A stretch of DNA of 64,000 bases from assembly GCA_031213475.1 (NCBI GenBank), contig JARUPZ010000005.1, forward strand, positions 2,945,732-3,009,731. The letters run 5' to 3'. Of the stretch, positions 1,858 through 62,714 are shown piece by piece. Positions within the stretch are counted from its first letter, which is position 1, and each line of letters opens with the position of its first letter. The DNA is from Nereocystis luetkeana (Eukaryota > Sar > Phaeophyceae > Laminariales > Laminariaceae). Position numbers and translations under genes: made by a program. The notes below the pieces were generated by a model. It ran no database searches and had not been told where the DNA came from. It saw only the letters and a list, made by a program, of their open reading frames with translations.

Positions 1858-1913
1858 TCATGCGGCCAGGTCGGTATATGGTGGCGGTGGCGTTTCCTGG
1901 CCTGAGCGCGCAG
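1858..1913 (-). CDS. Gene C exon 5 (PPxY tail)
   Basis: The exon is 56 nt after acceptor TTGACAG, phase 1, encoding ARSGQETPPPPYTDLAA and a TGA stop at 1858. It has exactly the length of gene B exon 5 and the same PPxY followed by a small and then an acidic residue. That agreement, not the short ORF itself, is the evidence. Confidence 0.68.
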
Positions 1914-2136
1914 CTGTCAAAAAGGCAAAGGACATACACACCAGAAAGCAAGAACGCGTACACCAGGGGCGATGAGGTTGGACGAGAGGGCCGAGGAAAA
2001 GGAGAAGAGCCGAACGATAGCTGTATATACACACCCATCTTCGACAGCTACGCGACGGCATCGCAGACGGCTTCGAGGATCGTACGGTGGCATATGGTGG
2101 CTTAAGGTGGCTTATGATGGCTTATTATGGGGGCCT

Positions 2137-2165
2137 CTCACGAGGCGTTCTACGATAGGGGGTGC
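2137..2165. repeat. Family 3 terminal fragment
   Basis: CACGAGGCGTTCTACGATAG matches one end of the family 3 element. The opposite end is not seen nearby. It lies in gene C intron 4. Confidence 0.45.
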
Positions 2166-2468
2166 CATTCCCGTGGCGTAACGAAAGAGAGGGCGGGAAG
2201 ACAATCGCTGTGGAGCGTATTCTGTCCGAGTGGGCTTGCAAGGGGCTCATATCGAGACGAGAACGAAGCAAATGCAAGGAAAAGCTTCTCGTGCGATTGC
2301 GACGTATTGCCCACACTTTGAAATCTGACCGTTCAGAGGCTTTCGAAGTTGCCAAAAATATAGTTTGCTTCATATCACGGCACGATTACCGTCAGGCCAT
2401 CAAGACAAGGGGTTGTCATTTCCGTTCATATTTTTTCACAGCTCCACCCTGCTGGGTGCTGGGCCCAC

Positions 2469-2819
2469 CTTGTCCCCTCTCGGTCATAGGTCCTACGCCA
2501 GCGATTCCAGGTGGGATCTTGCCGGAATCGCGTCCACCGCTTCCTTGGCGGCGGCTGATGCAGCACGTCGCGCCGATGGCTGCCGCGATCAGAAGCAGGC
2601 CCCCTCCCACGGCCGTGATAATGACAGCATTCGTGTTGACGGAAGAAGAGTTTGATCCCTCGGTGTTGACGCTCGATCCGTCAGTGACGACGGAGGAAGA
2701 AGTCGGTTCGGGTGTGGGGACGGGAGAGCTCGGCGCGGGGGGTGTGGAGACGGGTGTGGGGACCGGAGAGCTCGGCGCGGGTGTGGGGACGGGAGAGATT
2801 GGCACGGGTGTTGGCTTAT
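2469..2819 (-). CDS. Gene C exon 4 (stalk and transmembrane helix)
   Basis: Acceptor CATCAG at 2820; the likely donor is CAAG|GTGGGC at 2469/2468, which keeps phase 1 like the paralogues. It encodes a Pro-rich stalk with repeated APSSPVPTP units, then a hydrophobic helix and CCISRR. If the donor is not used, the frame reads on to a stop at 2416. Confidence 0.68.
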
Positions 2820-3381
2820 CTGATGGACAGTTGGAAGCGTTCGCACACGAGATGGCAGCGGTGCGATGTAAGTGGTACGGCGCAGAGAGACGTGGTCCTG
2901 TGACTTTCGGGTTGACGAATAAGGCATCGGAGTGCGGGGCACGCTACAACACCAGCACCGAGATCGGTACCTCTACTTACAGTATACGGCAGACGGTACT
3001 GCGGCGAAATTTGCTGGAAACTCCGATGGCCGATGAATGGTAACTCATGTCAATACGGTATGGTATGGCGCATGGTGTGGAAGGTTTCAGTCTTCAGCGC
3101 CTACGTTACAGTGCGAGCTGCTGTTTGTGCTTCACAACGGGAGGACTGGTTACCCTTCCCCCTTATCGTGAGCTCTCTCCCCATCGCGCTTGGCACGCCT
3201 CACAGCACAAACTATCGAGCGCTAACCTCGAAAGCCCACACACGGTACGTACGGCAATGGGCGTTGCCCCTCGAGAGCGGTACGTACGGAGCCCAAGTCA
3301 CGTTTGTCACGGCTATAATGTGAACGGCAGTTGCTGGGTGTAGCGTTTACGTCAGAAGCGACAAGTTTTCCGGCGACATAC

Positions 3382-3566
3382 CTGAATCGAAGATACTGTC
3401 AGGAGCATTCGGAGGTGCACACGTCGCCGTCAATGCTGCACACTCCAGTATGATTCCATATACGTATTTTGCGGAAGCCCACACAGTCACTCCCGTTGCC
3501 AACGAGTAGTCTTCGCAGTAAGAGTATGCCGTGTCCGGCATAACTGCGGAAGAATCGTCGACCTCC
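3382..3566 (-). CDS. Gene C exon 3 (ectodomain segment 3)
   Basis: The exon of 185 nt is one codon longer than in the other copies. It has a pyrimidine-rich acceptor (CCTTGGTGCCAAG) and donor GTATGT. It encodes YCEDYSLATGVTVW, the conserved G(I/V)(I/V/M)LEC core and TCAPPN, giving the last three of the six conserved cysteines. Confidence 0.85.
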
Positions 3567-4153
3567 CTTGGCACCAAGGAAAAAAATAGAGGGAAAACAA
3601 CACCGACGACACGCTCGTTGAGGGATGGGTGTAGAAGGGGCTTGGGACTGTCATGATGTGAGCACTTCGTAACGACAACACGGGGCTGCACTTGTTGCAT
3701 GTGGGTGTAGGGCCAGACCTTCCCCGCATCACGTGTCTGCTGTCGTCATTTATCGTAGTAGTCCTTCCGCGCTCGCAAACTAAACACGTGCAAGTACACT
3801 ATGCTATAGCGGTCTGCTCTGTCCCTAAATTTTCCAAGAATCATACGATCTGCACGGCGTCGCGGCACTCCTGGCGAGAACTGTACTGCTGTTCCGTAGG
3901 TGTACTGTTGTATCCTGCAGTACCTGCGTTCCGTACACACACAAGAAATAAGGTTCGTGTCTAGAGCAGCAACTGCCCCTTGATTCGCATTCCTATCCAT
4001 GAGTTCGCCACCCATTGACTTTCTCAAGCCCCTATAGACGAATGCCACACTTTCAGACGAGGAGACCTCCTCAAGCGGGGCACAAGAGGGCCGCCGAAGC
4101 CGGCCCATCCGAAATGAATAGCGAGGAGGGTATCGACTCCACCCCCGACTCAC

Positions 4154-4348
4154 CCTAGAGGGCCTTCCCACAAGAACGCGCCAGTCCCGTCGTCCTCAAC
4201 GTCGTACCCTTCGATGATCAGATCACCCAAATATGGATACTCAAACAACACTTTCGCTTGAATTTTCTGGATGCCCACTGTGAAGAACTCCGAGCCCTCG
4301 GGATCGCTGCCGCTGCTGGATGAGCCGACCACCTCCCCCCCAGAGCAC
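4154..4348 (-). CDS. Gene C exon 2 (ectodomain segment 2)
   Basis: Acceptor TTAG at 4349-4350; donor GTGAGT directly after GPLG. Length 195 nt, phase 2 in and 2 out. It begins with the conserved C-S-G-G and contains FFTVGIQKIQAKV and a GYDV segment, matching exon 2 of the other three copies. Confidence 0.85.
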
Positions 4349-6615
4349 CTAAGTTGTTCAACGGTTCTCCAAGTTTATGTGTCGGTTACATGTCACGGTT
4401 CGACTAAACACCGCATGCCTACGCATCAGTGCTAAACCCGTGGATATCCCAAAGGAGAGGAAACGTGCCCGAATTGAATGGACCCCTTCTGAGAGAGAGG
4501 AGATAAACACACTTCCCTATAACAACTCAATGATACGTTGTACGCATGCCATGTGCATGATCTATCAACATATATCTCCCTACGGAGGGGGTAGAGTATA
4601 GTGACCGTATAAATGGAACAAAGACAACAGACACGTGAATTTCCATTTTTTTAATTACACGACCATTATGTGCTTAGCCGTTCACCGTGGACTTTCCTGC
4701 CAACGTTTCAAATCAAACTCGAACCATTGCTGCAATCAATCCATGTATCAGGCGATGGGATTATTTTTATCATGCCCGGATATACCCCCCAAGGGTTTGG
4801 CAGGAGGAGGTGACGCAAGTGTAAATGCTGCCGTCATATCAACGAGTTGAGGGAGCATGGGTGGAGCAATGCATGGACGGATGTAGCACTCGTACATGAA
4901 GGTGGGCGCCGAGGGGAGGGTTCGGGCATGACAGGCGCCGGGCAGTAACGACTTCGAAGCAGCAAGCGCAGCTACGAGTACTCGTAACTATTCAACATAA
5001 TAGCAGATTGGGTCAGACCAGGCGCGCTTTCAATGCAGCATCTCTATGATCAGCCCTCCCAGGTGTCTATTCCCAGAGAACGTGAGCTACAACATTCTAG
5101 ATTGAAATCTAAGCGGGTGATAGGGGGGGGTCGTGGAAGAGAGGGGACGGAAGGGGGGGGGTGGAAAAAACAGTTTAAAAAGCTGATGAATGAAATGTTG
5201 ACGAACTAAAAGGCGAAAGTCCCGTTAAGAATAAAACACCTTGAAAGCTAACGAAATCCTGAAGGAAAACAGATCTTGTATGCAAACGAATATCCAGAAG
5301 AGAGCTGTGAATGAGGTCAGCTAGCGCACGACCACATTGCTGGCATGTAACATCGATTTTGCCCCTTGCTTCCGAAGGCTGTGAATCAAAGTTTCGAGTG
5401 GCTACCGTAGTCTGATAGTCTGATAGACACGAATTTTTGGTGATTACGTGGTACTCGCGATTATATTTTTCTTTTTGCGTGAACTGGCGAGTCATCACCT
5501 GGTTGGTCAAGATGCCTTACTTAAATGATATCAGCGCTGCTTCGAAAACCGAGAGCCGGCTCCTCGTCGTCTATTTGTTGTGGGAGGGCATGGTAGTTTA
5601 TACGTACTGCAGTCACAAGTGGAGGGGGCGCTGTGCTGGGGGAGCGGCCATCCTGAAAGAAAGGTCTCGCCCATCGGGATCCCCTCGTCAGAGGATCAAG
5701 CTTGGTGCTTGGGCCAACGAGAGCGTGCATAGACTTGGTCACTGCTGCTGTTGTATCGTTTTCTCTCTGTAGTGTGTTGATCCTTGGGCGAAAAAACTCA
5801 TGGAATGAGTTCGGGCAGGCTTATTCAGTACCAGTATGAAATTGTGCTGATAATAAGATACGTTCCATCTTGCAGTTCATGAAACTTCTCGAGGCACGAA
5901 TCGGACGCACGTATAGCTAGCGGCGCGGGCACCGCTGTTGTCTAAGGTTGAAAATGGAGTGACAGACCATGTTGCAACTCCCCTAGTTGCGTGCGGAACC
6001 CGCGATAGGTGCTCTTTCGATTCCTGGGTGTGTGTGTTTTCAGTCTGTTCTCTTTTTAAATTTTCGTACCAGGAACCTGGTATCCTTTATTTTGTTTCCA
6101 CCAATCAATTTTTTTTCTGGAAAAAGAAACACCTTCCTTCCTTGTATCCGTAGCGAATCATGCTCAGGGGGAACAGAACCATCTCGGTCTTCCCTGCGCT
6201 AAGACTTCTTACTTTCATTTTATCTTTCGTCGCTTCTTTCCTGTCATTTTTTCCTTACTCAGCTTTCTCTCCAAAGCAAAATGCCTGGTTTTCTTTTTAG
6301 TCCGTGTGCTACGAGTACCTGTTTTTGGTATCGAGCGCATTATTGCCAATATTTTTCCCGTAATAAATATTGATCCTATTTGGACCTTCGAGGGAAAAAT
6401 TGGCCTTCATTAGCGACGATCTACGTGACGGCAACTGCGGGGTCTGGGCGGGGGTGACACAACTTGGGGTCCGAGTTACAACCCAAGGAGTAGTGCGCAA
6501 CATGATCCTAACTGCCCTTCTGGGCGCTGGTGCTTATCGTAGACGGCTGATAACACCAGATAAAACTACCAATCATTATTGTAGTCGCTATCTCGGGGTC
6601 CCAAGGGGTTAACAG

Positions 6616-7504
6616 CAGGGCTTTTCATGGGTCATGACCCGACCCGCGGGTCGGGTCAGGTGGTGTTCAAAATGTTTCGGGTCGGGTCGGGTCTGGTCAG
6701 GAAGTGCTCAAAATCTCACGGGTCGGGTCGGGTCGGGTCGGGTTGGGTCAGGAGGTTTTCAAATCTCGTGGGTCGGGTCAGGTCGGGTCAAGAGTTTTTC
6801 AAATCTCACGGGTCGGGTCGGTGCGGTTCAAGAAGTGATGAAACGCTCACGGGTTGGCTCAGGTCATGACCCGCCAGAAGCGGGTCACTCGCGGGTCGAG
6901 CCAGCATGACCCGCCAGTTGCTTTCTACTGATCGCGGGTCGGACCTGTGAATTCGGTTCGCGGATCCGACACTTAGATTACTTCCTGCTCTCTCACCTAA
7001 ACGTTTCTCTTCTACCAATACTCGACAATGAATTCTCCTCGTATATAATATTCAAACGTTAAAACACCGCCAAATTAAGGTACGCATGCCCACATCCATC
7101 CATACCCACTACGGCCAGCCCATGTAACGCTGCGGGGCACTAAAATGAGCATTAAATTGTCTTTGAAGTGCCGACCCACGGGCCAGATCCGCGGGTCGAA
7201 CCTTCGGGTCAAGACAAATGGTCTCACGGGTCATCATGGTGACTCCACCCGTATGAAACCCGCGTCTCACGGGTCAATCGAAAGGTGGCGGGTCGGGTCG
7301 GGTTGGGTCAGGAGGCTTTGAAATTTCCCGGGTCGGTCGGGTTGTGGGTCATGAGATTTTCAAATATCACGGGTCGGGTCGGGTCAAGAGGCTTTCAAAA
7401 TCTCGCGGGTCGGGTCGGGTCGGGTCAAGTCAACACACCTCAATTTTTTCGCGGGTCAGCCGAGCCGACCCGTAAGGTTTGACCTGACCAGCACAAAGGC
7501 CCTG
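6616..7504. mobile_element. hAT-like non-autonomous element filled with GGGTC repeats, gene C intron 1
   Basis: 889 bp. The ends are CAGGGCTTTTCATGGGTCAT and an inverse ending GGCCCTG. Flanking 8-mers are GTTAACAG and GTTAATAC (6 of 8 identical), as expected for an aged 8-bp hAT target duplication. The outer parts are nearly pure GGGTC/GGGTC-A repeats; the centre (about 6950-7150) is unique and AT-richer. No ORF of a transposase. Confidence 0.65.
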
Positions 7505-8040
7505 GTTAATACGTACCAGGTAGGTATTAGCGATCGAATGTAATATCGCTGGCTCGCAGGTTGCGACAGCATACGTAGCTTGTCCTTCGAGTCATCTCTC
7601 TGATTGACAAAACATCAGTACGGGTACTGATAGGTGTGTATGGATGTCGATGGGTAGAACGGGCGGCAGGAAAAACGCACACGCACAGGCTTGCCGCGAG
7701 GAAGAAAGAGTCCCTACGTGTGCGTATTAACTCGGGGGTCGATGTGAGCGTCATCTGCGCACAAATAATTGTATCCGGTGTAAAATCGCGCAAGGGGGGC
7801 GAGGTTCTAAAACCTGCTCCCAACACGGTTCTACGCTGCCCCTGTGCGGCACCCTGATCACCTGCCGTCCAAACCGACCCCCGGGGGTACAACATAAGCC
7901 GTCGTCAGGCCCAAGGTGTGTGCGGCGTCAGAGCAAAGCGACGAGTGGGGCACTACAACAAATAAATACGGTACACCACACACTCGTATAACGTCATACG
8001 TAGAGTGGTGCGTACAACCGTACGTACAGCAGCTTGGGGC

Positions 8041-8135
8041 CACCCCTTTCGAACTGCAGTCCCGTTTTGGGGACAAGCTACTTGAAATTTGACTGGTTTG
8101 CCCCCAAAACGGGACTGCGGTTCTAAAGGGGTTAA
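8041..8135. mobile_element. TTAA-target piggyBac-like MITE (family 2), gene C intron 1
   Basis: About 95 bp palindrome with arms ACCCCTTTCGAACTGCAGTC and the inverse of GGTTCTAAAGGGGTTAA, and GTCCCGTTTTGGGGACAA in each arm. One TTAA end is lost. Confidence 0.7.
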
Positions 8136-8569
8136 GAAGCTCACCTCCGCGGGTATGTATGTACCCACGATGGACCAATTGACCAATCCCGAAAACTTCG
8201 AACTTCCCATTTGGTTCCCAGACGATGAATGGCAAAAAAAGAAAAAAACGTCAACTCGCGGACTATTTGCCGTTTTTGTACAAACCGTCGACCCTTGTGA
8301 AACAATTAGTTGCGCGTATTCTACCTTCTTCTCCCCGTCCGCGTCCTGCAAGCAAGTGTACCTGGTGTCTGGTGTCTGGTACCTGGTACCTGGTGTGTAT
8401 TACTTTTTCTCTCTATCTCTCTCTCTCTCTTCATTCCAAGAAATCGGTATACTGAGTAGTACACTACAGAGTAGATACGTTCGAAGTAGCGATTAGCTGG
8501 ATGATCTATCCTATCGTAAGCGTCCCATGACCTGCAAGTACTGCTATACTGTACCTGGTACGTACTTAC

Positions 8570-8930
8570 GTCCACGAGAGCGCATTGAGCGCCAAGGTGA
8601 TATCCTTTGTGGCTTCCACGCCGACGAGAAAGCCGCCGTAGTCTGCACAACTAAAGTACTTCTTGTCTGCGAACGAAGCGTTCCATGATAGAGCCGCGGA
8701 GTCGGGGTAGTACAACTCGCAGTCCTGGGTTTGGGCCGTGGTTATGGTGACCGTAGATGCGGCAAGAATTGCGGCCGATACGACTATTACGGGGGACCAT
8801 AGTTAATAGGACCTGTGGTATACATAAAAACCTATATATTTACCAATTTCTACTAACAAAATTTGCTCCTATTAACTATGGTCCCCCGTAATAGCGCCGT
8901 CGCTATCCTTTGCTGTGCCTTGCACTGCAT
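8570..8930 (-). CDS. Gene C exon 1 (signal peptide and first ectodomain segment, transposon inside)
   Basis: It starts at the ATG at 8930 and ends at donor GTAAGT (8569-8564). The coding parts lie either side of the element at 8787-8891. Without it and one TA the exon is 254 nt, the same as gene B exon 1, and encodes a start MQCKAQQRIATALVVSAAIL followed by the ectodomain (QDC, YFSC, and the first half of LSWTC). An upstream AG near 8946 could end a 5' UTR intron. Confidence 0.75.
8787..8891. mobile_element. TA-target inverted-repeat transposon (family 1), inside gene C exon 1
   Basis: 105 bp, flanked by TA on both sides. The ends are TTACGGGGGACCATAGTTAA and its inverse, with an AT-rich centre. 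No coding capacity. A TA duplication and this size fit a Tc1/mariner-type MITE. Confidence 0.85.
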
Positions 8931-12586: not shown

Positions 12587-12888
12587 ATGACGCGACAGTA
12601 CACCGCACATAAAAGATCGGTGACACCACCACCACCACCGTCATCATGGTCATCGTCATCAAGGCGGTTCGCGTTCTTGATCGCCGTTCTCTTTGCCGCA
12701 TCAGCGACCACCGCGGCAGCGCAGAGCGATAACTGTGTAGCTTACAACACGTCTTCTTCGGCTGGGAACCTGTGGGACGCTACGATCGCTCATCCGACCT
12801 ACTTTACTTGTGCGGAAGACGGCTTCATCGTGGCGGTGGAATCAACATCCAACTCTTCTGTCAACCCTCTCGATGGGCTATCATGGAC
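12587..12888 (+). CDS. Gene A exon 1 (signal peptide, ectodomain segment 1)
   Basis: 302 nt ending in a split codon at TCATGGAC|GTAAGT. It encodes the signal peptide, then DNC, YFTC and the conserved GLSWT. The N-terminal region before the hydrophobic core is long (27 residues, with a run of prolines), so the true start may be elsewhere. Confidence 0.8.
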
Positions 12889-15800
12889 GTAAGTACTACC
12901 ACGGTGACTTACAAAGTAGTTTGCTCGTATCTACCACGACGTATAATATATATGTACGTGCTACAGGTTTTTGCAGCATCCCTTGGTGTCGGAGAGAGGG
13001 GCGAGGAGGGGGGGCGGCAGCAGTCGATAGAAAGCCTGGTACGCAATTTGGGTCGCGCATCTGTATCGAACCACAGAATAACAATAATACATGGAGAAAT
13101 ATTTACTCGCCATGACGGGCAAATTATTTTTCGGGTGGGTCATCGCTTCCCCGCTTCATCATGATCGAGATATTTCAGGGCACACATATTTTTTTGTCTG
13201 TAGGGTCTATTAACGGCGCATGTTGCCGCGGGTGGGGGGTATATTACTAACTTGCATGATCTATCTCGGGGCGTTCATACTGCGGGTAGCGCAGCATGCA
13301 TTGCTGGTGCTACTTTTACCAATCCGCCCGAGGATATATATTAAAAAAAAGTGCTCACCTCGCTCAGCAGATTACATGAAGAGGACAGCATGTTAACCTG
13401 TCTGGGTCGCATCTACACTCGTACGCAGATTCTGCATAATAACATCGTAACGGCAGGACCTAGGTGAGGGGCTACTTGTAGATTGCCCAGACCACGCCAT
13501 GTCCGACGTGTGGAGGTTTCCCGACGGGAGTTCGTGCTTCGCCTTCCACTGCTCGCTGCTGCTGTCAATGTGCGAACCCGAACCCGGGTGGCGAAGGAGA
13601 GGTACTGGTAGACCTCCAGAAATAGACGTTATAGCTGGATACTCCTGCAATTCCTTTGAAATATTTTGTTCCAGGTACGAGTGGTATATTATACCGTATG
13701 ATACGTGAAGAGGTAAAGCAGAGTGTGACACCATTCCCCGTATACCCGTACCCACGAGTACTGCCGTATTGATACTTAGTGCCTAATAATAATGCGTGGT
13801 ACGTTTTGTGTTACACCTGGTCGTGCAGTAAATTTTCCAAGATTAAATATACCGGTACCTGGTATAAAATATACCAGGTAATTATATATTATTATTCCTC
13901 TTGCCATCAGACAATGTGCAGCATGATCTTCAACATGGATCACTCATAACTTTCCCGAAAGAAGAAAACCTCGGAAACAAAAGGAAACCCATGCACCAAG
14001 TCTACCTCCCTTCCGTGCCAACTTTCAGCTTGTCTACTCTATTTGCTGTATATTTTCTGAAATCGGGGAGACGAAAGCCGGAATGGTTCAATTAGGAAAA
14101 AATTGAAAACAAAATATATATATATTAAAAAAACTTCGATTTTAGTAATAATAGCGCAAAAGTGTCGTGGGGCGTGTGACTTCAACTGAGAATAATTTAG
14201 TCCATTCTGGTGGGGCAGACACCAGAAAAAAATGTCTATTTCACGCTATTATTACCTTTCTTTATGGATACCAAACAGTCCTTGTATTTTCATCCAGATA
14301 GGAATATAGTTGGAAGACTAGCACGCGGGTGCGAGGACAACCCGTGTATCCCCTGGAAGGCGGGCAGGGGAGAGACTCTGCGGGAGAAGGATTGATAACT
14401 CCACCGATACTGCAGGAACGTACGTATCCGATAACATTCACTGTGTGTAGCTGCAAGAAAATGCCCCCCCACCAACCACGCGGGGTGCAGTCTGTCGATC
14501 TTTACTACTTTATCGTCCAGAAACCAACAATCCCGCGCTAATTAATTCCAAGTGTTTTGACCCCGCAAGGGCAGTGCATATTTAAAATGGCTGAGAGGTC
14601 TCGTGCGCGATGTCCGCTACGGTCGCTCGAGGCCTAATATTATGCACAAGGACTCACGGCAAGTCGAACACGCACGCAACCCCCAGAATAGAAATGGTGA
14701 AGAGGCTGTGGACCAGGGGGAAATTGTGGGTTTCCCTCGAGATCATCAACACCCCCTACAGCTCAGACATGCATATATATATAATAAATATATGCGCATG
14801 CACTTGGCACCGCTACAAGTCTTATTTTTGGGCCTCTCTGTCGACTGGGCTCCTTAAGTGAGGTAAGGCTTGTCCCTATCACTAGTGTGCTGTAGTTTGT
14901 TTAATAATGTTTGGACCACATCACTCTCACTTTCCAGCTCAACCATTGCAGTCGGATTTTTTACCCCCGGCGGCATTCTCAACCATTTTGTCAGTGGAGG
15001 CGTCGTCGCAGCAGGTATATTTTCTCCCCGTCTCCCCCCAAGCACACTACTTGCCTCCGCTTTTTTCGAGCATATATATGGCAGTGTTCAGTATTCCCAC
15101 CCCGCTCGTCGATTTGCCGTATCTAGTAGAAACACGGTTTCTTACGTATCGTGTGCAAATAAATATCGAGCGAAACAATAGTTACCTCCCGGGAAAGGTA
15201 TTGCACGCATGATAATCCCTTTAAACCTGTAGAGAGATGATGCATAGCTAGCATAATTCACAAGGTATCCCTTCGGATGCTTTCGAACGCGGTGTGACGT
15301 GAGGCAAAAGCCCAATGACGCTCTATGCACCTGTTAAAGCGAAAGGGTCCAACAGCCTTCGAAGTCTTGGGGTATTTACAGCCCAAAATCGAAAGGCGCG
15401 ACGACCAGCGAAAGGAAATCGGTATGCATTCACTTATACCAGGTATATACCTATATATATATATGCTGGGGTGTTTTCAGGATAAAATGCGGCCGGTTGT
15501 CCCCTCCCGACTCGCGAGTTATATTTAGCCGTGATGCAGGTTTCCGCCGACCACAAATGATTGATATCAACCCGCAGGTGCTCTGGCGGGGATGTGATCG
15601 GCTCACTCAGCAGCGATGCCGTGGCCGAGGACTCCGTGTCATTCACGGTAGCCATCGCGGAAGTCAAAACGAAAGTTGAAGACCTCGAGGCTTTTCCCTA
15701 TCTTGGCGACATGTCCATCGGAGGATACGATATTGACGCCGATGGGGCCGGTGTATCGTTCTCGTGGAAAGGTCCTCTCGGGTGAGTCCGAGGAGATGCA

Positions 15801-18800
15801 GAGTTGATGGCTCCCGGTATTGAAGCTTGCTAGGGCACGGGTATGGCGGTGGCACATCTTGACCCTTTTAGGACTGCAGTCTCGTTCTGGGGACAAGTTA
15901 CTTAGAGTTTGACTGGTTTGTCCCCAAAACGAGACTGCGGTTGGTTCTAAAAGCCAAACAACTATTTCTGACTGCTGACGCGGCTCCTCGACTGAAACAC
16001 TACCCGATACCGTCTATCTCATTTTTTTTCACAAATATAAGATAGTTTGAGCACCATCTACGATAGCCCGAGGGTGATAAAGGCGTCCGTCGTTTCCGTA
16101 GCATTTTTTTTTTTCAATAGAAATACAGAGCTGTCCAAGGGAATGCCTTCAGGATAACAGGTGCTCGTACTTCGACGGTGCGTAGTAGTACACGTCTATT
16201 CGGCTCGCGTACGAGTCGGTTTGAATGGCCTTCTCGTGTGTTCTACCACAGTACAACAGCAGAGGCCTCCCCGTGAGACTTCGTTGTAGGGGGGCTGTTT
16301 TGAGGTTTGCCGTGGCATCTACACATCGGGTGCCGTGCCCATGGTTGGGGAGGCGGATCAGGTGGACCGATTCGGACACAGAACACGGCAGGGAGGTGCA
16401 CCTCGGTCGGGAATAAGTTCTATGTCATGCCAGCGCATCGCCCATGAAAAGGCTCGGATAAAAACAAAACGCTCCTAGTCTGCGAGGACAAATCTCACGG
16501 AGTACGGTATAGGCTCCATATCGAAATTGTTTGTGGAAACGAATGATCTTGGATACAGTGTACTGTAGTTCCTCTGTCAAGAAGACCCATCAGTCAAAAA
16601 CATTTGCCTCGCAGAACAGAAAGTGCTGCGCGTACCGTGTAGTGCCCATCCAATGGTTGTCGCGGAACGCCGTTTTTACGGGGGCCTAACTCTAATAGGT
16701 TAACACAACAGTATGCTCTAGACAGCAACATAATTTCCTGAATGCCGCCATTTCGTCTTGCAGATCTGCTGCCGACTAGCGAAGCAGAGAGGAGGGCGAC
16801 ATGCAATGCCTGTGGTTTCCTTAGCAAGCCCGAAAGTACAATATCGCAAGCGATGACGGCAATAGGCAGCCGATGCAGGAAAGGGCTTGCACTACCACTC
16901 TACACCCAAAACCAAGCGGTTATTGTGTGGGAATTGTTCACAAGTGTCGGACAGATAGGTCATGATCTAGACAATCTGTGCAGATAGATCCCCTTGATCC
17001 TAGTCTTTCGATAAGAGGTGTTGTGCAGGATCGGTGCGTATCCCGTAGTGCAGATCCAACCCAGGAAGCATGTGTACGGTAGATGAGATAATGCGGGTTA
17101 CACGGTTCCCACTTGGTAAACATGAGCGAGTTCATACAAATCAGAGCAACATCTCTGCCCTAAAAGAGATACTCGGTACCCGGTATAGATTAGTCAAGTG
17201 GAAATCGTCGATTTGTCGGAGAGGTATGGAAACTGTTAGGATACACGAAAAGCCTATCACGCTCCTTCTGCAGTCGCTCACACCGTACGAACGTGTCGGC
17301 GGTGTTTCCCCCCCCTCTTGTTTGCTTTGCGCGCAGGGACTTTGACGACGACGATGTTGCCCTCCCGGGCACGTCGTCATCTTCCTGCGGCAATGACTCG
17401 TTTGCAACAGGCGTGACGGTGTGGTCGTCCACCAAGTTTGTGTACGGAGTTGTTCTGGAGTGCGCAGACGTCACGACAACGTGTACGCCCCCGAACTACC
17501 CTGCCAGTCTCATCCAAGGTGCGCCCCCGGAGAAGGTATGGGGGGGCACCTAGGGGGTGGTGCATCATTTTTTGGGCGGGCTCCTCACATAAGCCGATGA
17601 GCCGGAGCTCGATATCTCACGCGAAACGTGGTGAAAAAGACTTGTTGCGAGCTGGGGAATCAACCTAGATAGGGGATCCCTTTTGTCTTACGGGATCCAC
17701 GTTTGCCTCAGGGGATCCCCTCTCGTATTACGGGATACCCTCTCGCCTTAGGGGGTCCCGGCTCTCCTTAGGGGATCCCCAATCACCCTAGGGGATCCCC
17801 ACCCACTTTCGATGATCCCCCACAAGCTTAGTGGACCCCCAACAGGCTTGAGGGATGCCCTCTTGCCTTAGGGGGTCCCCAATAGGCTGAGGGAATCTCC
17901 TAAGGCAAATGCGGATCCCGTAAGGCAAAAATATCCCCTAACTAGGGGGATCCCCTAACTTGCAACATGGCTTCGAAGAAGGTCGTTCGCGCGACCCGAT
18001 GAAGATGTATCTGCTCTAGACTCCTGAAACCCATTATTCTGTTCTAGCAACAGTATCATAAACCGTGTAGTTTTTCGCTTGGAGAGCGCTCAACTCAAAC
18101 CGCGGCCATAAACTGGAGAGCCTAAAAAGCGCAAACCCCAACATACTGGCAGCCGTGGGATGAGTGCCCCTGACGTAAGCGCCCCAGCGGCTATACAACA
18201 GCAGCTCTCATTTGGGACCCGCCGTCGTGTACGCGCTTGTTTGGTTTTTGTTGAGTGCTCTCGAACGGCGGTATCCACACTGCCTCATCGTGCGTCTCGT
18301 CACGGCGCGCGCTCGGGTAGGTATTGGCTGCACTTCTCGGCGCAAAACGTATTACCTTGACTGAGGGAGCTCCTCACCTGTAGAGCGATGCCTTTCTATG
18401 AGTGGTGCCACATTTTCTGCGCTCCTTGCATGATGAGATCAATGTCTTACCGGAAACGTTTTGACTCTGAAAAATCGAGCTTGCGCAAGCTGACCAGCAC
18501 TTCTTTGCGCTGCCACGATTACGTATGCAGCCCCAAACCATATGCACCGCTGCCGAGGCGAATACGTTAAAGTAACCGCTGTACTAATAGTTGTTCGTTC
18601 GAGGAACTGAACCGGTCAGAAAATGTTGAGTCCAAAAGCGCGAACCCCTTTATTACCATGGGAAGAGTCTGAAGAGCTACGTACACCAACTATCATTGAA
18701 TTCGATGAATATTTTGTCTTGCACGAGACTCGTCAGACACCTGTTCACTATTCGTCGCCCGTGGGAGTTTGTACTGGTCTTAGCGTGTTCTTGTAATCAA

Positions 18801-23549: not shown

Positions 23550-23735
<186 letters not shown>

Positions 23736-25130: not shown

Positions 25131-25971
25131 CAGGGCTTTTCGCGGGTCACGTGGTATTCAAAATGTCGCGGGTCGGGTCGGGTCAGTGCTCAAACTCTCA
25201 CGGGTCGGGTCGGGTCGGGTCAAGAGCTTTTCAATCTCGTGGGTCGGGTCAGGTCGGGTCAAGAGTTTTTCAAATCTCACGGGTCGGGTCGGGTCAGGTC
25301 AAGAGGGGTGATGAAAATCTCACGGGCAGGGTCAGGTCACGACCCGCGAGAAGCGGGTCACTCGCGGGTCGGGCCAGCATGACCCGCGAGTTGTTTTCTA
25401 CTGACCCGCGGGTCGGACCCGCGCATTCGGCTCGCGGATCCGACACTTGAATCATTTCGCGCTCTCTTCCCCAACGGCTTCTCTCGTACCAATAATACTC
25501 CATAATACTCCTCCTTTGGTATCACATCCAAACATTAAAATACCGTCAAATTCGAATACCCATGCCCGCATCCATCTGTACCCACTACAGCCAGGTTATT
25601 TATCACTGCGAGGCACTAAAATGAACACTAAATGGTTTTCGAAGTCCCGACCCATGGACCACATCCGCGGGTCGAACCTGCGGGTCAAGATAAATGGTCT
25701 CGCGGGTCAAGGCCACCCGACCCGCATGAAACCCGTGTCTCACGGGTCAATCGGAAGGTGGCGGGTCGGGTCGGGTCAGGAAGTTTTGAAATCCCGCGGG
25801 TCGGGTCGGGTCGGGTCAGGATATTTTCAAATCGCACGGGTCGGGTCGGGTCGGATCAAGAGGCTTTCAAAATCTCGCGGGTCGGGTCGGGTCAAGTCAA
25901 CATGCCTAAAAAAAATCGCGGTCGGACCCGACCCGACCCGAGAGGTTTGACCTGACCCGCGAAAAGCCCTG
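25131..25971. mobile_element. hAT-like element filled with GGGTC repeats, second copy
   Basis: 841 bp. The ends CAGGGCTTTTCGCGGGTCAC and TGACCCGCGAAAAGCCCTG form an almost perfect inverted repeat. Flanking 8-mers are GTTTTCTC and GTTTTTTT. The whole length aligns by eye with the copy at 6616, including the non-repeat centre (CTGACCCGCGGGTCGGAC, then a segment with CTCTCTTCCCCAACGG). Confidence 0.68.
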
Positions 25972-51427: not shown

Positions 51428-51776
51428 ACATATCAGGCAGGCCCTAGGTGCTACTTCTATCAGGCAAGCCCTAGGTGCTACTTCTATAAGGCAGACCCTG
51501 GATGCTACCACTATAAGGCAGACCCTGGATGCTACCCCTATAAGGCAGACCCTGTATGCTACCCCAAGAAGGCAGACCCTAGATGCTACCCCTGCAACGC
51601 AGACCCTAGAAGCTTCCCCTACAAGGCAGACCCTAGATGCTACCCCTATAAGACAGACCCTGGATGCTACCCCCGTAAGGCAGCCCCTAGGTGCTACCCC
51701 TATATAAGGCAGACCCTAGGTGCTACCCCTATAAAGCAAACCCTAGATACTGCCCCTATAAGGCAGACTCTACAGT
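51428..51776. repeat. 27-bp minisatellite upstream of gene E
   Basis: About 13 copies of a unit like GCAGACCCTGGATGCTACCC plus CTATAAG. Being a multiple of three it leaves an open frame of nine-residue repeats (RQTLDATPI), but nothing suggests that it is translated. Confidence 0.8.
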
Positions 51777-52149: not shown

Positions 52150-53575
52150 CCACTCAAGGTTCCTCGTGACATGGACTATCAGAGGGCCGGGATACTGGTT
52201 GGTGCTGCCGGCGGCACTCGTCCTTATTTAGGTCGCCGTCGGAGAGTTGGGGTTGTCCGGACGAACGGTAGCTACCTATCAGACGCAGAATACCATCAGC
52301 GCGGGAAAATAGTTTACCCTGGATCTACACCCCTCTTTCTACGACAGAGCACCTAACCAATATGCCGGGATATGGACGCAATGTGTTGAATTTGGGGATG
52401 ATTCCGTGGTGGGTCATGTCGCGACGATTCCTCTCGACATGGTCAACAATAGAAAAGAAATGAGAACACCGTCGTGTTCAGCGGACGAAGATGTTGTCCT
52501 CTATGCGTTAGAAACCTTGTGCGATGATATCGTGAGCCATTCTACGATAGAGGTAGCACATTTCCGCTATTTTGCTTCTGAAAGACGGGGTTCCTTGAGC
52601 CCAAATCGTCGGGGATGTCTATCTTTATTTAAAAAAAAAAAACGGTTTTGTAGACTTGGGCCACGGGATTCTTCGCCGCGATGCCTTTTGATTTTTGCTG
52701 AAATCAGTTTTTGGGCGAGGTATGGAGCTTCTTGAGTTGGGAGCCTCAGAAAAATTACCGTGAACCTCTATCGTAGAACGCCTCTCGTGGACTACACTGT
52801 GGCTTCGCTTGGAGAGGATGAGGTATACGCCGTGGACGCAAGGAACACTCTTTACAAGAAGAAAAGTACTTATTCGCTTGCTGTTTGCAGAGGGGAGGCC
52901 AATTTTACGTGTTCGGGGACTCTTCATGATAGAAGAAGTACTATAATCTTTGTCGAGCACAGTAGTAACGATGCGTACGCGGTATTGAACGCGTCATCGC
53001 TCTTTGGAGGTAGCAATGAGGTTTGGATCGTTGACGACCTTGTTTCTGTGGGCACCGGGGCAAACTATATACCCACATCACTTGCGGTGGCTATAGAATG
53101 CCAGGAAGGTTGCTTCGAAGCTGTAGTGGAATGGAGCTTATCCGATAGTGGTTTGTCTATCGATGATTCGAGCAAATTCCTGTCTATCTGGTACGAGGGT
53201 TTGAACTTCTATATTTCGTATGACGAGGTGGACAACTACCCGGGATGCGAAGATCGTGACACGGATCGGGAAGACTTGTCGTTCTTTAAGAAAGGAGACT
53301 GTTCCGGTGCAATATCTTCGAGCTATGTGCAAGATGGAGGGCAAGAGAATGTCACGGCTATTTCTGCATGGGCGATTGTGGTGGTTTGTATTTCTTGCGT
53401 TCTTACTGCGTGGTACAAGGTGGCGCATCAAAAGGGGGGATACGACTTAGTCACGTATGAGGGCATAGCACAAGTATATTACAAGGAAGGACGTGAACCC
53501 GAGATGCGTGTGGGTGACAGGCGGGCCTCTCGTGGTGTCTCCCAAAAACAACGTGGTGCGAGCGACACGGACTGA
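52150..53575 (+). pseudogene. Gene E: broken single-pass membrane protein of unknown family
   Basis: One reading frame runs through this region, broken by TAG at 52229 and 52310 and by a foldback element at about 52538-52785 that adds a TGA at 52733. The coding parts before and after the element are in the same register. The first part has a hydrophobic segment (WLVLPAALVLI) and a run ending DMVNNRKEMRTP. The second part, from about 52788, is open to 53575 and looks like an ectodomain (YSLAVCRGEANFTC, PTSLAVAIECQEGC), a helix AWAIVVVCISCVLTAWY near 53370-53420 and a short tail. No PPxY and no clear similarity to genes A-D. I do not recognise the family. A multi-exon gene whose introns cover the stops is possible, but I found no good splice pairs. 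Confidence 0.5.
52538..52785. mobile_element. Foldback element (family 3) inserted in gene E
   Basis: ATTCTACGATAGAGGTAGCA to CCTCTATCGTAGAACGCCTC, about 250 bp and close to the copy at 30763. It interrupts the reading frame of gene E. Confidence 0.7.
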
Positions 53576-53668
53576 AAACGGGGTGATTGGCTCCGACGAT
53601 TGTATCAACGGGGAGTAGAGACGTCGATGTCATCATCCAGGATAATATCTGCATATATAAAACAGAAT

Positions 53669-56616: not shown

Positions 56617-56702
56617 TTAAGGATAGGATGGTAGTGGTGCTGCTTGATAAAGTGGACGTTCGGAGTAGGGTGGTGGTGGATCGCTCGTAGAGGAGGGCTC
56701 AG
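56617..56702 (-). CDS. Gene D exon 5 (PPxY tail)
   Basis: 86 nt after CCCTTTGGCAG, phase 1, ending in TAA at 56617. It encodes a longer tail than the paralogues, with PPPPYSE followed by PLYQAAPLPSYP. Confidence 0.7.
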
Positions 56703-59700
56703 CTGCCAAAGGGTCTAGAACGTGCGTAGCGGATTCCGAGGGGGCAGGGCGGGGAGGGCGAGGACAACAGAGGGGTCGAACGTCGGGATCGAAAATTAGC
56801 TCACACTTGGCAAACCAAATCGTGGCGATGTTCGTCCGTGTGACTTGCTGCCGAGGGCGCAAACATTATATTAAATGGTGCAGCCGCCATCAGCTCTCTA
56901 TAACCCAAAAACCACCGGTGCCTGCGGCCAAAACGTATCCCTTGTACCCTAAATGCCCACAATGAAATGGGACCTGCTGTTGAAATCCGATTTCCCAGCA
57001 GTCCCAACGTCAGGGCGATAGCAGCGGGAGCTGACAGAGTGTTTCAGGTTTACGATGCACGCTCTCATTCATAAAACCCAGACCCCGGTGGCTTGGTAGG
57101 TGGTCCGCGAGCCTATCAAGATCAACTTCGTAGGTTCAAGTCCCACCGAGTGCATGCTCGTAAGGGTTTTTTCTTGCATGAAAGAAATTGACTAGCGGAA
57201 AGCGCGAGAGCGTGAGTTAGCTACGGTCGATGAAAATCGACGAGCAGTGGGAATGCTGAACCCCATGCGCGACAAACAATAAAGGCACGTACCGGGGGGG
57301 AGAAGGGACGACACCAACCTGTGACCATGGCTCGTCCAGAAGAAAACCGCTGAGGGTAAAACCTCCTACGAGTTAGGCTGGAAAGCGAAAGTGATGATTA
57401 AAAAAAAAACGTCCAAAAGGTTATATTCTAGGTGACCGAGGGGAAGGGGCCCCCCGAATTGATACCTAACAACTTGTTCGCCAGTGAGTGTTTCGGAAAC
57501 ACAGCCTGCTACCCTCACTACCCTAAGGGGTCCGTGCGAACAGGTTGACTTTGCCATGGCCTACACGAGATAGGTGTGGAAGCAATCGAGAATGAAACGT
57601 GTTTTTACATGGAATGCACGTGATACTTCGCGAGGGACTCAAACCAGGAGGGCTGGGGAACGCAACGTGAAGCAATGTAGCGATCACGGTGTAGCTCACA
57701 TTTAGCATGAATCCTGTCACCGTTTTGCTCATTGAGGTTGTTGATGTAGGTATCGTTGTTGGTGAGACAGCTAGGTTGTGTTTTTTCGCCTATGATATGA
57801 CAACTTGCACGAGCCAATGAGGGGGGACGGTCACCTGCGTTTACGTAGACCACATGTGTCACAGTTCCTGCTTTCGGGGTGAAGCCGCCGCCTCCTTCTC
57901 TCCCGCCCATGATCACCGGCATGCCAAAGGTATCTTGGGGTCTGGCGGGGTGCCGCTTTTTTCTTGCTTCTCGTCGGTGGAAGCCGCACGCCAAGCCGAC
58001 GCATATCGCAAGCACACACAGCCCCCCCGCCACGGAAGCTCCAGCGATGATGGTGGTCGCGGACGAGGACGACGACCCCCCGGTCGACTGGATGTTTACC
58101 GAAGGGCTTGGTGTGACGGCGGCGAAACTGGTGCCAGTAGAAGGGCTTGGTGTGTCGAAGGAAGGTACGATGTCCCCAGAAGAACTCGGCGGGTCCGTGG
58201 TGGCCACGGGGCTCGCAGAAGTACTTGGCGGGTCGGTCGCGGTCACGGCGCTCGAGGCAGACGTCGTTCCATAGGTGGCGGAATCAGACCCATCTTAAAC
58301 TCGTTCGCGCATGGTACGGTGGGGTTGAAAAAAATCGTGCGGAATGTTGTTTGGAGAAGAAAAATGGTTAGCACTGTTTTTATGTCTGTGGATCGAACTA
58401 AACGTTGGAGTACTGACCATGCTGACATCTCAATCGACCCTCATGTTGTACTAAGTCGTAGGGATGACAATTTTGTTGAGCCATGTTGAATAGTTCTGCC
58501 TCGCAAGTTACACTACCGCAGGAATGACGCGGAGGGTTGCCCTATGCGAGGCCTATGACGGACGCTTTGCCGACATGTAGACTCCACGACGGAGAGGTCG
58601 TTGAAGAGTCCCCTCCCTGAAGTTGCTGAATATTTTCTTTTTGCTCGTCAGTTCACACGCAACACAATGTATCAGGCTTCGAGCAACACGATCGGAACAC
58701 GACACGGGGCTGCAATGCAGACATTGTCGCTCAACCGCACAACGGCGTCCAGACCGTACAAAAATTGGTTATGATGTGGACTGCTGCCGCTGCTGCTGCT
58801 GCTACTACTGCTGCTGCTGCTGCTGCTGCCATTGCGGCGTTCACGTCAGAGCTGATAATATCCAGTGTGGCGTACCTTCTAGGAGACCAGCAGGATATGC
58901 CAAAGGTGCGCACGTTGTCGTGACGTAGGCGCACTCCAGCATGACCCCAAACACGAAATCTGTGAAAGCCCACACCGTCATTCCCGTGGCAAACGACCCA
59001 CTGCTGCACAAAGAAAACGGTGTGTCTGGCAGGACGGAAGCTTCATCCTCGAAGTCCCTTAATAATTAATTCAACAAAAAAAGCGACAAATAAATAGCGC
59101 GCAAGGAATACCCCGCCGACGTGCAGATGTGTTAGAGGGATGGTCGCAGATGAGGAAGCCGAAGGGGCATCGTGTTTCGCATGCGCATACGTGATAATAA
59201 GGTGGGTACGTAAGCCCAAGCCCTTTTTTAATAGATGAAAAAGACATTTCGTGTCCGCAGCGTTTGGGAAAAACGAAGTCGTGATCCCGGATGACGACAA
59301 ATGTCGACCAAGAACTTCCACCTGTGCACAAATCGATGCGAAACAAACGAACACTAAGAAAACTGTGAGCACGAAATACGTTTCTTTCTACTCTGCGCCA
59401 GGTAGCTAGCCGTAAGTGGACATCTCTTTCGCTGGTATTTTATCAGGTGTTTATTCCGCTCGTGGGCAATGCAGTTGTATAGCATACCAGGTATATATTA
59501 TGTAGCTCTGAGGCGTTCTACAACAGAGGTCTACCCTAAATTTTAAGAGGCTCCTCACTTAAGGAGAACTCAATACCCCACCGGAAAACTGACTGCAGCA
59601 ACAACCAAATTGCATCCCGATGAATAACCCCATGGCCCTAGCATACAAAAATGTCATTCGACGAAACGAGATTGACAGGCCGACGATTTTGGGTCAAGGA

Positions 59701-62700
59701 GTCCCGTCACTCAGAAACAAAAAAAGGCCACCTCCTATCGCAGAACGCATCCTCTTCTTAAGTCTTGTTGCGTGCCTCGTAGGCAAAACCACGGGACCCG
59801 ATAAAGCAGGCCAGCGATCAATGTTTTTTTGTTTTTTCGGTACTCTGTCTAGGAATAGTATTAATAGCTACATTTGGACCTTGTTGGGGCTCATATTTTT
59901 CGCCGCAGGTGTGTTTTATTTGTTTGTTTTTTGTAGCTGTGCTCGCCCCGAGAGAGAGCACCTGAAGAGCACAAACACGACAAGATAAAGCAACATGATA
60001 ACCTCGCACCTGTCGATCGACCTCAGAAAGGGCACACAGAGGGCGCCTCATGACCGGCTATCTATGCTGTGGCAAGGCACATCGTGTGTTTTGAAAAACT
60101 GTTTTTTCTCTGGATTCGGAAGTTTCTCCTCGAGCCAAAACGCCGATTGAAAAGTCCAACTCCCATATTTGCCTCCGTTACGATGGATCAACTGCAAAGT
60201 TGGATGTTTATCACACTCACAAGCGAGGCGTACGAGTCGAATGGAGTAGCGGCCATCACTGCTGCTGCTGCAGGGGATGAGCTCTGCTGGTTGTTATGAT
60301 ACTGGTTTGTATGAGGTTGAAAGCCCGGTAGTTACCTGGGTTCTGGCACTGGGATCGTATTTGTAGTACTTGGAAGGCGTATATTAGGTGGACAACCAGG
60401 GGTTTTCCAGAGAGGCACGAGCGTGGTCTCAGTCTCCGTCGTGTACGAAAGGAATAAAGTGGCTCTTCTATCTCCAAGCGAACATCAACGTGAGTACCAA
60501 CGAGTGCCGGCTTAATAAGCAGACCTGTCCAGGGATACAAAGTGTTCCGCTCTCCGTGATCTTAACAAGTGGCGTCGTCGGCAGGACAGATGTCTCTTGA
60601 CATCTTCCGTGAAAATTTTCTTCTCGTCTTTTTTTATGTTCCCTTTTCACTTTCCCTGCATCTTCCTCACCCCCCCCCGTCGCGGGTGACATGGCGATTG
60701 TTTCTCGTTGACGATTTCTTCCTGCCCCTTAAGGCTACGCCCTCCTTTCATTATTTTTTACGTACTTTGCCGGCTTCGTTGCCTTGCCGTTCAGAGGTGT
60801 GGGAGTGGGTTTTGAGGAGCCGCATCTTCGACTCATGTTCTAGTTCGTGAAATCGGGGTTTCCATGAATTTCCCATAATTCCGCGTATGTATGCGGCTCA
60901 TCAGAGTGGGCTAGTGTTATGATACTGCTTTGTATGAGGTTGAAAGCCCGGTAATTACCTGGGTTCTGGCACTGGGATCGTATTGTAGTACTTGTAAGGT
61001 GTATCTTAGGTGGAATTTTCCAGAGAGGCACGAGCGTGGTCTCAGTCTCCGTCGTGCATGAAAGGAATAAAGTGGCTCTTCTATCTCTAAGCGAACATCA
61101 ACGTGAGTGCCAACGAGTGCCGGCTTAATAAGCAGACCTGTCCAGGGATACAAAGTATCCCGCTCTCCGTGATCTTAACATGACGCTATTTTCGTCCCCT
61201 GTTCATTACATGAATGTGTAACCGCGCCTCTTCGTATCTAGCGTGAGGATACTTGGTATGATACCAAACGTGATGATACCACCTCCGTGCGTACGTAGCT
61301 TGTATTCTGTCTATTAAATAAGCCAACACCGGGGATTGTAGCCGCCCATCCCCTGCTAAAACACCGAGTTTTGTCCGTCTTCTCTTTGTGGTATGAATAT
61401 GTAACCATGCCTCTTCGTCAATAGTCAGCGGCTTATGATGCCAAACGTGGCATAATTTGTATTCCTGGCCAACCCAATGATGTTGCAGCTATTACGGGGG
61501 GCCGTATTCAATATGACCTACGGTACGCACAAAAACCTATATATTTTGCTATTTTCACCCATAATATTTAGTCCTACCTGGTATTTACTACCTGGTATGG
61601 TCCCAGTGTTTATTCGTGGGTAGACGTCTGTCTCGTATCTTAGTGCGGAAGGCGTGGTGATGTAGCCAAACCCAACTGCCCTGCAAACCCTATACAGAGT
61701 ATCTGCGAACCCCCCCTATTACGGGGGACCAAAGTTAAGAGGACCAAATATTGCTAGTAAAAATGGTTTAATATACAGATTTTATGTATACCTGGTAGGT
61801 CCTATTAACTATGGTCCCCCGTAATAGCACCAACCTACACCCTCGAAGAGCTGGTTTGATGGTCTGTGGTCAGCTCAAAACCCGGTCATTCCCGGTGTTG
61901 GAAACATATGACAACTTTGGCAAAAAAAAGCAAGAGTGCATCGAACTAAAAATCTGACCAGGTAAAATGTCAGTATATCCTGTTTGCGCAACGACTCTGG
62001 TCTCGTTCGCCGATCCTCGGTACTCGCACACCATGCACGAAAAACATGGCATATTACCTGATGTACAGTAGTAAAACTGCTTTATTTTTGTTGAATTGGC
62101 ACACCTACTACTTGTTTGCGGTGTGTCTGCTGATGATGTAACATATTTTTTGTATTTAAAGCTACAACTACTGTAGCATAAATAGTAAATAACACTGTAA
62201 GCCGCCCGATTTCTGGATATTGTTACAGCAGTACCCAATTCCACTCGCGCTTCCGACCGCGGAAACGCTACGAATATATTTACGTGACCTACCTATAAAG
62301 CCCACAGCCCTATTGCAGCTCTAACCTCCACCTCTAACCCTGAACCCTGAACCCTCACTCCAACCCGCTCAGGCGGCAACCTCTGTTCGCATACTGAAAT
62401 TGACGCTTCCAGAACATAGCGAGGTTGAAATGTTGAAAGCACCTTCTGAGATGCATGAAGGGGTAGCGGATAACGGGCCGGGCCATGTTCATTGACCTGA
62501 AGAAACTCACCCGAAGGGACCCTTCGACTCGAACACTATGTCAGCTCCAGTGGTGTCAAGGTCGTATCCTCCAATGTGCATGTGCGTCAAGTACGGGAAG
62601 GTACCGTCTACGACCCTGGTGGTCACTTCCGTGATACCGACCGTGAAAGACAACGAGGCCTCAGAAGAAGAGCTGACGATGGCGGATGCGCGGACGTCCT

Positions 62701-62714
62701 CCGCGGCAGAGCAC
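56617..62714 (-). CDS. Gene D: PPxY-tailed surface protein, 5' end outside the window
   Basis: Exons 2-5 on the minus strand: 62714-62511, 59057-58876, 58293-57835 and 56702-56617. Exon 1 is not found between 62715 and the right edge; introns 1 of the paralogues are 1.4-4.2 kb, so it probably lies beyond 64000. Exon 2 encodes CSAAEDVRASAIV, LSFTVGITEVTTRV and MHIGGYDLD. Exon 3 encodes SFATGMTVW, GVMLEC and TCAPLAYP. Exon 4 has about four stalk repeats, the helix IIAGASVAGGLCVLAICVG, HRREARKKRHP and DTFGMP. The tail is EPSSTSDPPPPYSERPLYQ plus about ten more residues. No stop or frameshift is seen in the visible exons. Intron 2 (3.45 kb) carries a foldback element, a candidate TRIM and two small transposons. 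Confidence 0.78.
57080..57152 (+). other. tRNA-like relic
   Basis: GTGGCTTGGTAGGTGG resembles an A box and GTAGGTTCAAGTCCCAC a B box with a nearly complete T arm. No convincing acceptor stem or anticodon arm could be folded by eye. Confidence 0.3.
57835..58293 (-). CDS. Gene D exon 4 (stalk, transmembrane helix, DTFGMP)
   Basis: 459 nt from GTTTAAG to AACGCAG|GTGACC. Short stalk, one helix, and a basic segment before DTFGMP. An unspliced reading would continue to a stop at 57605. Confidence 0.78.
58783..58830. repeat. (CTG)n microsatellite next to gene D exon 3
   Basis: CTG repeat, about 46 bp from the exon 3 donor and within intron 3. Confidence 0.92.
58876..59057 (-). CDS. Gene D exon 3 (ectodomain segment 3)
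   Basis: 182 nt between ATTAAG and GTACGC. It starts with the acidic DFEDEASVLPD seen in the paralogues and carries the last three conserved cysteines. Confidence 0.86.
59509..59752. mobile_element. Foldback element (family 3) in gene D intron 2
   Basis: GAGGCGTTCTACAACAGAGG to CCTCCTATCGCAGAACGCAT, about 244 bp, with the shared GGCTCCTCACTTAAGGAG segment. Confidence 0.62.
60292..61180. mobile_element. Candidate TRIM (miniature LTR element) in gene D intron 2
   Basis: Two direct repeats, 60292-60567 (276 bp) and 60915-61180 (266 bp), are near identical apart from a short deletion. Each starts TGTTATGATACTG and ends GATCTTAACA, so each has the TG...CA and short inverted ends typical of LTRs. 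The internal part (60568-60914, 347 bp) is non-coding and begins AGTGGCGTCGTCGG, possibly a primer-binding site. No target duplication is seen (CTGGT against TGACG) and the polypurine tract is weak, so a plain segmental duplication remains possible. Confidence 0.5.
61490..61612. mobile_element. Family 1 transposon, degenerate copy in gene D intron 2
   Basis: The left end TATTACGGGGGGCCGTATT is clear; the right end is eroded (TATGGTCCCAGTGTTTATT). The centre carries ACCTAYATATTTTGCTATTTT-like sequence as in other copies. Confidence 0.45.
61717..61825. mobile_element. Family 1 transposon copy in gene D intron 2
   Basis: TATTACGGGGGACCAAAG to GGTCCCCCGTAATA with TA on each side, about 110 bp downstream of the degenerate copy. 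Confidence 0.8.
62322..62368. repeat. Short degenerate CCCTAA/CCCTGA tract
   Basis: CTCTAACCCTGAACCCTGAA lies about 140 bp 3' of gene D exon 2, inside intron 2. Confidence 0.4.
62511..62714 (-). CDS. Gene D exon 2 (ectodomain segment 2)
   Basis: 204 nt between GTCGCAG and GTGAGT after GPFG, phase 2 in and out. The same length as gene A exon 2. Confidence 0.86.

Follow-up and report, generated by a model that had tools for sequence, protein, structure and literature searches.

A 64,000-nucleotide stretch of the Nereocystis luetkeana genome (contig JARUPZ010000005.1, positions 2945732-3009731; hereafter the window, with the contig as C5) holds four homologous genes, A to D, whose predicted products join a cysteine-rich head to a stalk rich in proline, serine and threonine, a single transmembrane segment and a tail with a PPxY motif. 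From their sequences, we take them with modest confidence for members of a gene family that is clustered and apparently restricted to one lineage, and whose products would be single-pass receptors or sensors of the plasma membrane; the head would bind a ligand and the tail would serve as a docking site. An earlier reading of the window by eye (the sequence-only reading) had proposed four paralogues; tblastn between exon pieces recovers all four, but the cluster is larger, as a search of the whole genome (465 Mb, 1987 contigs) marks two more copies upstream of the window genes, the fifth gene E and the degenerate F. We label the window genes as follows; the copies called B and C in the sequence-only reading are C and A here.

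1858-8784 plus an interrupted 5′ end, minus strand: gene A
12587-21119, plus strand: gene B
29568-39084, minus strand: gene C
56617-62714, continuing beyond the window, minus strand: gene D

Using exon pieces of A and B as tblastn queries, we obtained best E values between copies of 7e-20 for exon 3, 2e-13 for exon 2 and 1e-15 for the transmembrane piece. Exon 1 was found by comparing upstream regions, where B and C match each other with E values of 6e-19 and 2e-19 in the two directions and A matches both more weakly. The homology is beyond chance because these E values reach 7e-20, because the ratio of nonsynonymous to synonymous substitution rates (dN/dS) is below 0.5 in ten of ten pairs and because database proteins span the predicted junctions. 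The introns found, whose junctions were read by sequence, are GT-AG with phases 2, 2, 1 and 1, in agreement across A, B, C and D. Exons 1 to 5 measure 302/204/182/696/68 nt in B, 254/201/182/849/56 nt in C and 215/195/185/351/56 nt in A (exon 1 counted from after an insert), and exons 2 to 5 of D measure 204/182/459/86 nt. Of the lengths singled out by the sequence-only reading, these are reproduced: 182 nt for exon 3 in three copies (B, C and D) and 185 nt in one (A), 254 nt for exon 1 of C and 56 nt for exon 5 of A and C. Its common five-exon plan stands in splice sites and phases, but not as a complete set in every copy: exon 1 of D probably lies outside the window and that of A is split by a 99-bp element.

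1858-1913, minus strand: gene A exon 5 (56 nt), PPPPY tail and stop
2469-2819, minus strand: gene A exon 4, stalk, transmembrane segment and tail start
3382-3566, minus strand: gene A exon 3 (185 nt), cysteines 4-6
4154-4348, minus strand: gene A exon 2, cysteine 3
8570-8784, minus strand: gene A exon 1, part downstream of the insert, cysteines 1-2
8790-8888, minus strand: 99-bp insert in gene A exon 1, resembling a miniature inverted-repeat transposable element (MITE), with 22-bp perfect terminal inverted repeats
12587-12888, plus strand: gene B exon 1, signal peptide and cysteines 1-2, start codon uncertain
15578-15781, plus strand: gene B exon 2
17337-17518, plus strand: gene B exon 3 (182 nt)
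19335-20030, plus strand: gene B exon 4, stalk, transmembrane segment and tail start
21052-21119, plus strand: gene B exon 5 (68 nt), PPPY tail
29568-29623, minus strand: gene C exon 5 (56 nt), PPTY tail
31622-32470, minus strand: gene C exon 4, long stalk from a 39-nt tandem repeat, and transmembrane segment
33325-33506, minus strand: gene C exon 3 (182 nt)
37221-37421, minus strand: gene C exon 2
38831-39084, minus strand: gene C exon 1 (254 nt), signal peptide
56617-56702, minus strand: gene D exon 5 (86 nt), PPPPY tail
57835-58293, minus strand: gene D exon 4, stalk and transmembrane segment
58876-59057, minus strand: gene D exon 3 (182 nt)
62511-62714, minus strand: gene D exon 2

For gene B, the first in-frame ATG gives the 302-nt exon 1, and the start is uncertain because the 5′ context AAGCATGCT of C, D and E is absent there. 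No exon 1 of gene D lies within the window; on the same strand, at window-equivalent 70069 and so 6 kb beyond the edge, there is a signal-peptide start, MLRSSWATGTALFAAVVLFAASA, that breaks off in Ns. These extend from window-equivalent 69500 to about 70000 and cut the probable exon. By score this candidate is not significant (tblastn E 0.57-0.71, unreported by an exon-1 profile); we accept it as the probable exon 1 of D on account of its strand, position and shared 5′ context. The PPxY motif itself served to locate exon 5 in A, C, D and E, and for A, C and D the exon boundary was then set by a phase-compatible CAG acceptor; in gene C a second PPxY-bearing frame near 30292 was not chosen.

The signal-peptide exon of gene A is split by the MITE-like element, which brings an in-frame stop. 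Eight copies of this family, one of them only 82 bp long, occur in the stretch of about 94 kb searched, the gene A copy included and another lying at about 27013-27109; the insertion is probably recent, since another copy in the region is 97% identical to that in gene A. The signal peptide of the sequence-only reading is thus intact in C and present with an uncertain start in B, but interrupted by a transposon in A and, for D, probably beyond the window edge. Among the putative signal peptides, hydropathy (19-residue window above 1.6) flags the N-terminus of B and C only, not that of E or of the two relatives in other records described below, a protein of Laminaria digitata (P0001) and P0002.

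The proteins share an anatomy in which stalk length varies. Every head for which exon 1 can be read (A, B, C, E, L. digitata and P0002, six in all) has the six cysteines proposed for the ectodomain, and D has four in its exon 2-3 part. The seven heads are acidic, with an isoelectric point (pI) of 4.05 and charges of -14 to -22. Stalks consist of 47-63% proline, serine and threonine and measure 65 residues in A, 157 in B, 214 in C, 81 in D, 17 in E, 145 in L. digitata and 16 in P0002. In three genes the stalk DNA is itself repetitive: gene C carries 10.5 copies of a 39-nt tandem repeat (62% match, 31885-32296), gene D two copies of a 39-nt unit (58177-58254) and gene B 1.9 copies of an 81-nt unit (19491-19644). 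Past the transmembrane segment, D has CG where A, B, C, E, L. digitata and P0002 all have CC; basic residues come next, and after the basic stretch B, C, D and L. digitata, but not A, E and P0002, carry a cytoplasmic (D/E)TFG(T/M)P motif that the sequence-only reading did not mention. PPxY is present in all six tails identified (A, B, C, D, E and P0002). Stalk, transmembrane segment and PPxY tail are therefore found in A, B, C and D as had been claimed, with exon 5 of A, C and D located by the motif, and the stalk and transmembrane metrics bear out the receptor- or adhesin-like architecture.

Searching the whole genome with the L. digitata protein returned 18 matches at E ≤ 1, all 18 of them on C5 within 200 kb (2.81-3.01 Mb); counted exon by exon this is a lower bound, as exon 1 of A and the probable exon 1 of D are not among them. 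All family copies found thus sit in one stretch of the genome. Beyond A to D, the matches mark two further loci:

about C5:2806870-2816501: gene E, from the whole-genome search
about C5:2937477-2938470: remnant F, from the whole-genome search

Exons 1 to 4 of gene E measure 236/216/182/243 nt, and a PPPPY tail, whose flanking residues resemble the tail of P0002, is readable further on. Remnant F is frameshifted in exon 2, and where the other copies have their exon-3 donor it has a stop. Of two PPxY frames downstream of it, one, at C5 about 2933335 and about 4 kb beyond its exon 3, bears PPAY and looks like a family tail. Heads of the paralogues A to E are 43-59% identical. A tree groups E with P0002 (99% bootstrap), while its remaining branches are weak (48-86%). 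The family is under purifying selection, with ectodomain dN/dS of 0.24-0.49 in all pairs of A to E, ratios that are rough at a dS of 0.9-1.5.

Two relatives outside this genome cover the predicted junctions. The unnamed L. digitata protein (427 aa, 62% identity, E 5e-62) has the same head, stalk and transmembrane segment and spans the joins of exons 1-2-3-4, its model stopping before the PPxY exon. P0002 (317 aa), found on two contigs of which the longest has 2049 bases, shows the whole plan with all joins spanned, a short stalk and two PPxY motifs; it has the architecture of the family and is likewise undescribed. It is probably a transcript, as it is uninterrupted on so short a contig. No further relative was found at E ≤ 10 among 5.8 billion proteins in a search that requires shared 5-residue words, none in the phage records and viral contigs searched, and no published description of the family among the papers listed by literature searches. 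As far as these searches reach, the family appears to be lineage-restricted. The sequence-only reading had called it apparently undescribed, and this holds: none of six ectodomains scanned (A-D, L. digitata and P0002) has a Pfam match above the cut-off, no PDB match is significant and neither relative bears a functional name.

What the head might be was examined by comparing sequences and profiles. The best sub-threshold Pfam match was Sortilin, in one member, with an E value of 0.043 and far below its cut-off; the PDB sequence search gave no match for one member, and a profile returned only a proteasome chain at an insignificant E of 0.34. When single exons were aligned to P0001 with MAFFT, part of exon 1 was placed on exon 3, and we therefore tested for an internal repeat. 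Profiles of exons 1 and 3 match over 19 columns with a pairwise E of 0.004, a score that none of 100 column shuffles reached.

The most suggestive outside resemblance, a weak one, is to the animal lectin VMO1 (VMO-I), described in PMC9363672 as a beta-prism of three repeats with four disulfides that binds heparin and N-acetylglucosamine oligosaccharides. Aligned with HHalign to two VMO1 sequences, the head scores 33.3, with none of 30 shuffles reaching this value (maximum 19.0). A profile of 97 VMO1 proteins from birds and reptiles, restricted to lengths of 175-195 aa within the 120 listed out of 371, gives a score of 31.6, with none of 60 shuffles reaching it (maximum 19.8) and 12.7 when reversed. 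The VMO-I structure 1vmo ranks first of 15 single proteins (21.5, followed by ubiquitin at 16.7), and the whole head matches a profile of 290 VMO1 repeat units in the register of exon 1, again beyond shuffles (0 of 40). The likeness consists of a weak profile similarity over the repeat core (GF...VE...C-S/L-x-G), of cysteines bracketing a repeat and of a secreted head of similar size.

Several results count against such a fold and against the internal repeat. The probabilities given by HHalign itself are 53% for the two VMO1 sequences, 37% for the 97 proteins, 3.7% for 1vmo alone and 8% for exon 1 against exon 3. Exon 1 shows no similarity to exon 2, nor exon 2 to exon 3 (scores reached by 81 and 36 of 100 shuffles, respectively). 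Taken singly, exon 1 matches the VMO1 unit in a different register, exon 2 barely exceeds shuffles (13.7 against a maximum of 12.9) and exon 3 fails to match, its score being reached by 17 of 40 shuffles. None of the six ectodomains scanned reaches the gathering cut-off of VOMI (PF03762). Searching the N. luetkeana genome for VOMI gave no match, but its 14 control genomes gave none either. VMO1 has four disulfides, and 1vmo has eight cysteines and is basic (pI 8.5); the heads here have six cysteines, are acidic and are carried by a stalk that leads to a transmembrane segment and a PPxY tail, and a third repeat is not detected in them. Their acidity argues against charge-based binding of sulfated glycans, and, given this difference from 1vmo, their ligand need not match that of VMO1. 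We therefore treat a VMO-I-like fold as the leading lead for the head and not as an assignment, with a likelihood that falls a little short of even.

Jacalin-related lectins and griffithsin (beta-prism I) were considered on account of short look-alike stretches in the heads, GPFG and TGVTV, and a jacalin-like lectin was rejected after these failed profile comparison (HHalign 13.5, reached by 4 of 30 shuffles; no Pfam match). Jacalin and VMO1 are a known fold pair of the same fold class. HHalign also misses jacalin against VMO1 (probability 0.08%), so the negative result with jacalin does not exclude the class.

Taken together with the anatomy, a working model for the family can be proposed. 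The signal peptide would direct the protein to the cell surface, where a type I orientation would place the head outside. Exons 1-3 would form an acidic six-cysteine head, probably an all-beta domain, in which the parts from exons 1 and 3 may descend from a single unit by duplication and divergence, and whose fold is possibly the VMO-I beta-prism; this head would bind an extracellular ligand, perhaps a glycan of the wall or cell coat. As a guess, its disulfides may pair C2-C3, C4-C5 and C1-C6. The mucin-like stalk of exon 4, presumably O-glycosylated, would keep the head off the membrane, and its length (16-214 residues) could change through whole-codon DNA repeats. The mostly double-cysteine motif after the transmembrane segment is a possible site of lipidation. 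PPxY motifs are established recruiters of NEDD4-type ligases, and the predicted cytoplasmic position of the motif is that of PPxY-bearing membrane clients of WW-domain ligases. The PPxY of exon 5 should accordingly be a docking site for WW-domain proteins, the likeliest being a NEDD4-type ubiquitin ligase or an adaptor, and such recruitment would couple ligand binding to endocytosis or signalling. The frequency of the motif weighs less than it seems, as the count is partly circular: four of the six tails (A, C, D and E) were located by PPxY itself, and P0002 is free of this bias. In its most specific form, the proposal is that a beta-prism lectin module of the egg-coat (VMO-I-like) type was, in part of the brown algae, joined to a length-variable mucin stalk and a PPxY tail and multiplied in one cluster, giving a lineage-specific locus of receptors that recognise glycans, serve to tell self from non-self or to recognise gametes, and signal by recruiting a ubiquitin ligase; we regard this full version as improbable.

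The strongest rival explanation, unlikely though we think it, is that these are cell-wall integrity sensors comparable to yeast Wsc1-3 and Mid2, in which a wall-anchored head and a spring-like stalk relay mechanical stress through the tail. The two sides share, in the same order, a small cysteine-rich head, a Ser/Thr-rich stalk, one transmembrane segment and a short tail, and they differ in the PPxY tail of the family here; Wsc tails are not known to carry PPxY. Such sensors are known in walled cells, as reported in PMC9024836, and PMC8307928 describes the pathways from matrix to growth and development in macroalgae as uncharacterised. Yet Pfam detects no WSC (PAN-fold) domain in the six ectodomains scanned, the stalks of E and P0002, at 16-17 residues, are short for a wall-spanning spring, and the clustering and strong divergence would suit recognition better than housekeeping sensing.

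Those same two features could instead speak for cell-cell or gamete recognition or adhesion proteins whose diversity is kept by a birth-and-death cluster, an explanation we rate as improbable. It is favoured by a single cluster that holds intact, damaged and degenerate copies, by the 43-59% identity of the heads and by the variable stalk length, and set back by an average dN/dS well below 1. According to PMC12592211, the sex region of brown algae includes putative transmembrane proteins with a possible part in gamete recognition; the same paper refers to lectin-sensitive gamete receptors in Fucus, though a link to the present family is not shown. The damaged copies would also fit a locus that is mostly decaying, with one or two functional members: a transposon sits in the signal-peptide exon of A, F has its frameshift and its stop at the end of exon 3, and Ns cut short the probable exon 1 of D. 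We find this very improbable, as the models of B, C and E are uninterrupted, relatives occur in two other records and dN/dS stays below 0.5 in every pair, those with A and D included. We keep to receptors or sensors with a ligand-binding head and a docking tail; a role in gametes, defence or wall contact is speculation.

The window also contains features outside the family. A 279-residue stop-to-stop frame between C and D (52736-53575, plus strand) has a hydrophobic segment around residue 200 and no accepted Pfam match, and is possibly another membrane-protein exon; one of 294 residues (44548-45432, plus strand), with no Pfam match, may represent a gene of its own or belong to a mobile element. 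Arrays of a CGGGT-rich unit of about 40 bp, alike between places, lie at 6647-6865, 7288-7429, 25169-25305 and 25762-25925, a TCTG microsatellite at 23550-23735 (46.5 copies, 97% match) and a 27-bp tandem repeat at 51431-51772 (12.6 copies). Rfam and tRNA scans of the window returned nothing.

If they act as we propose, the proteins of this family could be a means by which the alga perceives its own wall, other cells or microbes. Their compact, clustered family, with head, stalk and docking tail each well delimited, would offer tractable candidates for a part in defence or cell recognition.

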